Source: Embleya scabrispora | GTDB taxonomy: Bacteria > Actinomycetota > Actinomycetes > Streptomycetales > Streptomycetaceae | Direction: 5' to 3' | Length of the DNA: 64,000 bases | NCBI RefSeq assembly: GCF_002024165.1 | Contig: NZ_MWQN01000001.1 | Span: forward strand, 868,001 to 932,000 | Shown here: piece by piece, positions 58,701 through 59,533 of the stretch | How the letters are laid out: each line of letters begins with the position of its first letter | Numbering within the stretch: position 1 is the stretch's first letter | Notes under the pieces: model-generated | The model's input: only the letters and a program-made list of their open reading frames with translations | What the model was told of the DNA's origin: nothing | Databases searched by the model: none | Position numbers and translations under genes: made by a program

Positions 58701-59276
58701 TCAACCCGCCCGGGCCGCCGGCGGCGCCAGCGCCCGGAGTACCGACACGCGGGTCACCCCGTATTCGGCGAGCAGGTCGGCCACCACCCCCGGGCCGGAC
58801 GTGAGCGCGAGCAGGATGTGCTCGTCGCCGATGTGCTTGTCCCCGCGCTCCAACGCCTCCCGCAGCGACGTCTCCAGCACCCGCTTGGCCCCCTCCGTGA
58901 ACGGCCCGGGTGCCGCGCGCCCGCCGAACGGCCACACCCGCCGGCGTCGCGGCGCCACCGCCAACGCGCCCTCGCCGTGCACCTGTTCGACCCTGGCCAC
59001 GATCTCGTCCACGTCGATCCCGAGGTCGGCGAGCGCGGCCTGATCGGCGGGTGACACCCCGCCGCGCCGGCGCGCCCGGGCCAGCGCCCGCATCACCTCG
59101 TCGCGATGGGCGACGAATCCGATCGTCGCCAGTGCGACCGCCGCCGGCGTACCCTGCCCGTCCAGCAACGCCGCGAGCATGTGCTCCTCCCCCACCTCGC
59201 CGGCCTCGGCGCGTTGCGCGTGCTCGACCGCGCCACGCACCACGGCGCGGGCGTCGGCGGTGAACCTCTCGAACAT
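58701..59276 (-). CDS. Stand-alone Clp-N (double Clp repeat) protein, 191 aa
   Basis: Contains the two Clp repeat motifs of ClpA/ClpC N-domains (FERFTADARAVVRGAVEHAQ ... GEEHMLAALLDG; FTEGAKRVLETSLREALERG ... GDEHILLALTS), separated by an Arg/Pro-rich insert, and no ATPase domain. In Clp ATPases this domain binds substrates and adaptors and is the target of several actinobacterial peptide antibiotics. The ATG overlaps the stop of the small HTH gene (TGATG) and has GGGAGGA upstream, so the two are co-translated. Could sequester a Clp ligand or sense one for the HTH protein. Confidence 0.88.
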   Translation of the reverse strand: MFERFTADARAVVRGAVEHAQRAEAGEVGEEHMLAALLDGQGTPAAVALATIGFVAHRDEVMRALARARRRGGVSPADQAALADLGIDVDEIVARVEQVHGEGALAVAPRRRRVWPFGGRAAPGPFTEGAKRVLETSLREALERGDKHIGDEHILLALTSGPGVVADLLAEYGVTRVSVLRALAPPAARAG

Positions 59277-59485
59277 CAGTTCCTCCCGTGCTTCTTGTGC
59301 ACTGCCTGACGGCTTACGCCCAGCTCGGCGGCGATCTCCTGCCACGACCAGCCCTGCACGCGCGCGCTGCGCACCTGCACGGCCTCGAGCTGTTCGAGCA
59401 GCCGCCGCAGCGCGGCCACGGCCCGCAGGCCCACGCGCGGATCACGGTCCCCCGCCCTACTGGCGAGGTTGGTTGCTTCGGTCAT
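59276..59485 (-). CDS. Small HTH DNA-binding protein, 69 aa
   Basis: Helical N-terminus (AVAALRRLLEQLEAVQVRSA) followed by a clear HTH: WSWQEIAAELGVSRQAVHKK. First gene of a two-gene operon with the Clp-N protein. The ATG at 59485 is immediately preceded by an 18-bp palindrome and has no ribosome site; a consensus promoter overlapping the palindromes would start the mRNA about at the ATG, so it is probably leaderless. Most likely the repressor of its own operon. Confidence 0.82.
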   Translation of the reverse strand: MTEATNLASRAGDRDPRVGLRAVAALRRLLEQLEAVQVRSARVQGWSWQEIAAELGVSRQAVHKKHGRN

Positions 59486-59488
59486 GTC

Positions 59489-59533
59489 TGTCAACGTACG
59501 TTGACATGCAGCATCTGTCAACCGCAGTTGACA
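59489..59533. promoter_or_regulatory. Two 18-bp operators and promoter of the HTH/Clp-N operon
   Basis: Perfect palindrome TGTCAACGTACGTTGACA (59489-59506) and second copy TGTCAAC-CGCA-GTTGACA (59516-59533), 27 bp centre to centre. On the minus strand, TTGACA (59521-59516), a 17-bp spacer and TACGTT (59498-59493) make a near-ideal promoter whose -35 lies in one operator and whose -10 lies in the other. Predicted start falls at the ATG 59485. The region also lies upstream of the divergent epimerase gene. Confidence 0.85.

Follow-up and report, generated by a model that had tools for sequence, protein, structure and literature searches.

A conserved HTH/Clp-N operon of Embleya scabrispora as a probable two-protein counterpart of the self-repressor ClpC2

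A small operon of Embleya scabrispora, in which an HTH gene is followed by a gene for a stand-alone Clp-N protein, is probably a two-protein counterpart of ClpC2, pairing a self-repressing HTH protein with a ligand-sensing Clp-N mimic of the ClpC1 N-domain. The unit is conserved across actinobacteria and thus not peculiar to the Embleya genome, while a literature search in open-licence papers returned no description of such a split HTH/Clp-N pair. All coordinates given here refer to the window, i.e. the whole stretch of 64,000 nucleotides that was analyzed, and the operon comprises the following features in the order of transcription:

59516-59533, minus strand: outer operator TGTCAAC-TGCG-GTTGACA, a perfect palindrome containing the -35
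59521-59516, minus strand: -35 element TTGACA at the end of the outer operator, its TTGAC half being conserved
59489-59506, minus strand: inner operator TGTCAAC-GTAC-GTTGACA, a perfect palindrome containing the -10
59498-59493, minus strand: -10 element TACGTT inside the inner operator
59485-59276, minus strand: HTH gene with ATG start, 69 aa plus stop, encoding the putative self-repressor
59274-59278, minus strand: TGATG shared by the HTH stop and the Clp-N start, which are expected to be translationally coupled
59276-58701, minus strand: stand-alone Clp-N gene with ATG start, 191 aa plus stop, with two Clp repeats and an extra helical insert between them

The overlap of the 69-aa HTH gene and the 191-aa double-Clp-repeat gene at TGATG, as described in an earlier note on this DNA, is confirmed by the window sequence. 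For the Clp-N gene, an alternative GTG-started reading of 214 aa exists as well; the ATG is the start conserved among relatives. Pfam assigns two Clp_N stretches (PF02861) to the 191-aa protein with 54.1 bits against a cut-off of 20.7, and the 69-aa protein gives sigma-region-4/HTH-type matches. Its closest named relative, from Embleya hyalina, is 99% identical. Convergent with the operon lies a gene for a Tex-family RNA-binding protein (55679-58576).

Both operators, of 18 bp each and 27 bp apart, cover the -35 and the -10 in exactly the TGTCAAC-N4-GTTGACA form that had been claimed for them, to the base. The promoter has a 17-bp spacer between -35 and -10, and only 7 nt separate the -10 from the HTH ATG, so that a leaderless mRNA is expected. 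In shuffles of the window, the operator pattern is matched 1.0 times on average if up to three mismatches are allowed. The genome-wide operator search, which had been proposed as a check, found no perfect site in the organism's own 10.96-Mb genome beyond the two before the HTH gene, and the pattern reversed as a control, at no more than two mismatches, had no match. In 18 other genomes, perfect N4 sites were located at the HTH/Clp-N operon in 16/18 cases, and two perfect sites away from the operon (L256, L257) are flanked by neither an HTH nor a Clp-N gene. This distribution fits a dedicated self-repressor. Across loci, both operators keep the half-sites GTCAA/TTGAC, although invariance of the core is partly built in, because operators were first counted as sites with two mismatches at most and afterwards with a pattern fixing the TCAA/TGA core. 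Unaffected by this is the contrast between the two spacers: in the inner operator, the -10 positions are occupied by T in 98% and by A in 99%, whereas the same positions of the outer spacer vary freely.

That the operators are more than a chance occurrence is settled by the conservation of the double operator. Among the relatives found with the Clp-N protein, 29/30 carry an HTH gene preceded by two N4 operators. A subsequent survey searched named genomes as well as the wider phylum with an HTH profile. In all loci retrieved (110/110), including those of named Streptomyces and Amycolatopsis, a Clp-N ORF stands beside the HTH gene, and two N4 operators are present at a distance of 27 or 28 bp from each other; a few of these loci come from genomes already represented among the 30 relatives, and in one locus (L141) the Clp-N match lies 300 nt away from the HTH gene. 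Even in more distant HTH loci, Clp-N is still found downstream in 17/20. The start codon is ATG in 137/138 loci, and Clp-N start and HTH stop overlap by 1 nt in 104/138. Within the sampled Streptomycetales genomes, 170/198 contain an HTH match, mostly as frames of ~72 aa, with Clp-N confirmed where loci were read. In contrast to this constant pair, flanking genes vary between genera (Tex and epimerase genes stand beside the pair in 1/80 named loci), which defines the unit as two genes plus double operator. A mobile-element or phage gene was rejected as an explanation, as a phage search gave no match and plasmids only three records; a defence system was rejected as well, since PADLOC returned no meaningful match.

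In mycobacteria, ClpC2 represses its own gene via CGTCAAC-n5-GTTGACG sites, which are often duplicated and placed over -35 and -10. Its mRNA start is leaderless, its self-repression is relieved by cyclomarin A, and the protein has been published as a cyclomarin sponge (PMC10030653). The operator layout of the Embleya operon matches this published self-repressor, so that self-repression as its logic, already suggested in the earlier note, is strongly supported at the sequence level. Like ClpC2 (Rv2667 and actinobacterial orthologues), the pair combines a homologous HTH N-domain with a Clp-N carrying cyclomarin-pocket residues, including the contact phenylalanines F2 and F80, behind a duplicated GTCAAC/GTTGAC operator over -35/-10 with leaderless start and the same logic of self-regulation. 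In contrast, ClpC2 is one polypeptide with a 5-bp operator spacer, whereas HTH and Clp-N are encoded by two overlapping ORFs here and by separate frames in the survey loci, as had been proposed, and the split operators have a 4-bp spacer. Additionally, the split Clp-N displays a free MFERF N-terminus as in ClpC1 as well as an extra insert, and the equivalent of ClpC2 R189 is not conserved.

The link to ClpC2 therefore holds with regard to operator half-sites, layout and the HTH profile match, but has to be refined to a paralogue with 4-bp spacer residing beside a normal fused ClpC2, for which the same genome contains a further gene with double N5 operators. Among fused loci (n = 20), N5 sites are present in 19/20, in 18 of them as pairs, N4 sites in none, and one locus has no sites. 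With both spacers allowed, split loci gave N4 in 189/189 that yielded a fit, six more being without fit. The two classes thus differ by one bp of spacing, and several genomes contain both. The operon appears to work like ClpC2, yet it lacks the single polypeptide and the N5 spacer.

Several further loci were observed alongside. A third, diverged HTH and Clp-N pair is located on contig 4 of the same genome at about 703.7-704.3 kb (L040, 1462-1760), with CATCAAC-N4-GTTGATG operators, the recognition helix SAQAAHKR and a Clp-N whose drug-pocket residues look lost. In a 226-aa frame on contig 3 (L041), a related HTH is joined to a C-terminal part of unrelated sequence, and operators of this type are missing. 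Double N5 operators of the ClpC2 type without adjoining HTH or Clp-N gene occur at L258 (about 959-1041) and L259 (about 913-1071), where they are, in one reading direction, upstream of an FAD-dependent monooxygenase-like gene and of a stand-alone PEP-utiliser mobile domain, respectively; these possibly represent a wider ClpC2 regulon in one genus.

In the AlphaFold model of the HTH protein (pLDDT 82), helices span residues 16-43, 48-55 and 59-66, the last one being the recognition helix (SRQAVHKK). Foldseek with this 69-aa model yielded general HTH matches only, none of them significant. The HTH profile, however, matches the ClpC2 N-domain crystal 8ADA with an E-value of 0.0012 and, in searches of whole genomes, picks up the genes for fused ClpC2 at about 1e-8. 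By alignment to 8ADA, E/D31 and R42, present in all 138 loci, correspond to D46 and R57 of ClpC2, whose salt bridge dimerises that protein (PMC10030653). A match to the antitoxin RelI (Rv2664; PDB 9SDC, E 2.3e-5) was obtained as well, and RelI has been reported to resemble the HTH region of ClpC2 (PMC13284704). A toxin-antitoxin-like module with a RelI-type antitoxin, to which this relatedness of the small HTH proteins would lend itself, is nevertheless highly improbable, as the partner is a Clp-N domain instead of a RelS-like nuclease, no toxin-family match was found for the pair, and the pair is absent from phages in our search and rare on plasmids. The recognition helix is also similar to that of the cluster A mycobacteriophage immunity repressor (7R6R), in which R45 and Q46 contact guanines; unlike the dimer expected here, this repressor is monomeric, with two domains on an asymmetric site (PMC9283540).

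Contact of ClpC2 with DNA was ascribed by Taylor et al. (2023) to its Clp-N half, based on a conserved positive surface and weaker binding of R185A/R189A (PMC10030653). The split systems point to DNA reading by the HTH. There, the HTH is a protein of its own, while half-sites are identical to those of fused ClpC2. The R189 equivalent is R in 95% of fused proteins but A in 52%, G in 22% and R in only 11% of split Clp-N; the R185 equivalent is not specific, because it is common to ClpC1. Moreover, changes in the recognition helix covary with the operator, which marks the HTH as the DNA reader. Where HTH residue 61 is A, half-site base 5 is A in 180/180 loci, and where it is S or T, base 5 is G in 7/9 (Fisher 2e-11, not corrected for relatedness and based on few independent events). 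At residue 64, K accompanies C or T as base 6 and E accompanies G in 20/20 half-sites, and in the only locus lacking R/K59, base 1 is A rather than G. Crystal 8ADA stops at residue 72, just short of the recognition helix, which may explain why this helix was missed in ClpC2; the 2026 RelI paper already mentions an HTH region in that protein (PMC13284704). Five loci (L193, L197, L202, L205, L038) form a natural altered-specificity subclass with the recognition helix SRQ(S/T)VHEK and GTCAGG half-sites.

The model of the Clp-N protein (pLDDT 90) shares its fold and drug-pocket residues with the ClpC1 N-terminal domain, and its nearest structures are ClpC1 N-domain crystals, several of them with rufomycin, lassomycin, cyclomarin or ecumicin. 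ClpC2 is also among the structure matches. The rmsd is large (about 6.6 A), which makes a different placement of the two Clp repeats about the insert probable. In contrast to ClpC1, the split protein has no AAA+ ATPase and carries an insert of about 33 residues after ClpC1 position 47, which is absent in ClpC1 and mostly absent in ClpC2 and is a class mark of split Clp-N. In the Streptomyces/Embleya/Amycolatopsis group, it contains a basic RRRGG stretch; the insert is a candidate for docking of the HTH protein. Of the drug-pocket residues, F2 (97%), F80 (95%) and E89 (81%) are kept in 132 split Clp-N sequences, as are V13, K85 and L92. Drug-contact residues, in a list partly drawn from general knowledge, are more conserved than the rest of the protein (Mann-Whitney p 0.003, core burial being uncontrolled). 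Sensing of Clp-targeting compounds is plausible on these grounds. Yet this pocket conservation is equally expected from ordinary substrate or adaptor binding.

The main rival is a proteostasis signal in place of an antibiotic. In this case, clients of ClpC1 that are unfolded or tagged would titrate Clp-N, which would act as co-repressor or holdase, and the operon would report ClpC1P load. ClpC2 is induced about twofold by heat and has been proposed as a holdase (PMC10030653), the phospho-arginine-site glutamates of ClpC are largely kept in split Clp-N (E31 in 96/132, E106 in 111/132), and the wide occurrence of the HTH in Streptomycetales is not limited to producers of Clp-targeting peptides. 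E106, however, is missing in some lineages where F2 and F80 stay, and we consider this explanation rather unlikely. The earlier suggestion of a sensor for Clp-targeting compounds in general is probably too wide a claim, since neither ecumicin nor ilamycin induces ClpC2 in M. tuberculosis (PMC12913811). Due to its fast divergence and its insert, Clp-N may also have a different ligand.

According to the two-protein reading that we favor, HTH dimers would occupy both operators and thereby block the leaderless promoter of their own operon. Clp-N, made together with the repressor via the coupled start, would act as decoy of the substrate- and drug-binding N-domain of ClpC1. A ligand of ClpC-type N-domains, whether a foreign inhibitor, a cyclic peptide antibiotic or a protein that is tagged or unfolded, would engage Clp-N, whereupon repression would be lifted, the Clp-N pool would rise and ClpC1 would be shielded. 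We infer the actual repression, the contact between HTH and Clp-N, and the ligand. With the halves in separate proteins, a ligand can relieve repression only if the two interact. A simpler arrangement, doubtful to a similar degree as the proteostasis sensor, would dispense with any complex: the HTH protein would be a simple self-repressor and Clp-N only a passenger effector that serves as sponge or competes with ClpC1, while derepression would come from turnover of the small HTH protein, e.g. by ClpC1P. Dimer interface and recognition helix indeed both lie in the HTH alone, and the rates of evolution of the two proteins differ widely (mean identity of 79% for HTH vs. 48% for Clp-N); on the other hand, the genes are strictly paired, mostly with a coupled start, and have a fused relative in ClpC2, which suggests that their products work jointly.

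As a broader and more tentative proposal, an actinobacterial cell might possess two insulated ClpC2-type sensors, one fused with 5-bp and one two-protein with 4-bp spacing, in which free Clp-N would serve as ligand-sensing co-repressor in trans and ClpC2, too, would read DNA by its N-terminal HTH. The difference in spacer between paralogues of one cell has the look of a clear example of geometric insulation. Among the drug targets in tuberculosis, ClpC1 is one whose natural inhibitors are products of actinobacteria, and ClpC2 is a published route of protection. Its two-protein version, widespread in Streptomyces and relatives, would offer a sensor for Clp-targeting compounds that is readily available and separable, and a possible reporter for their discovery, while the split form makes it testable which half of ClpC2 contacts the operator.
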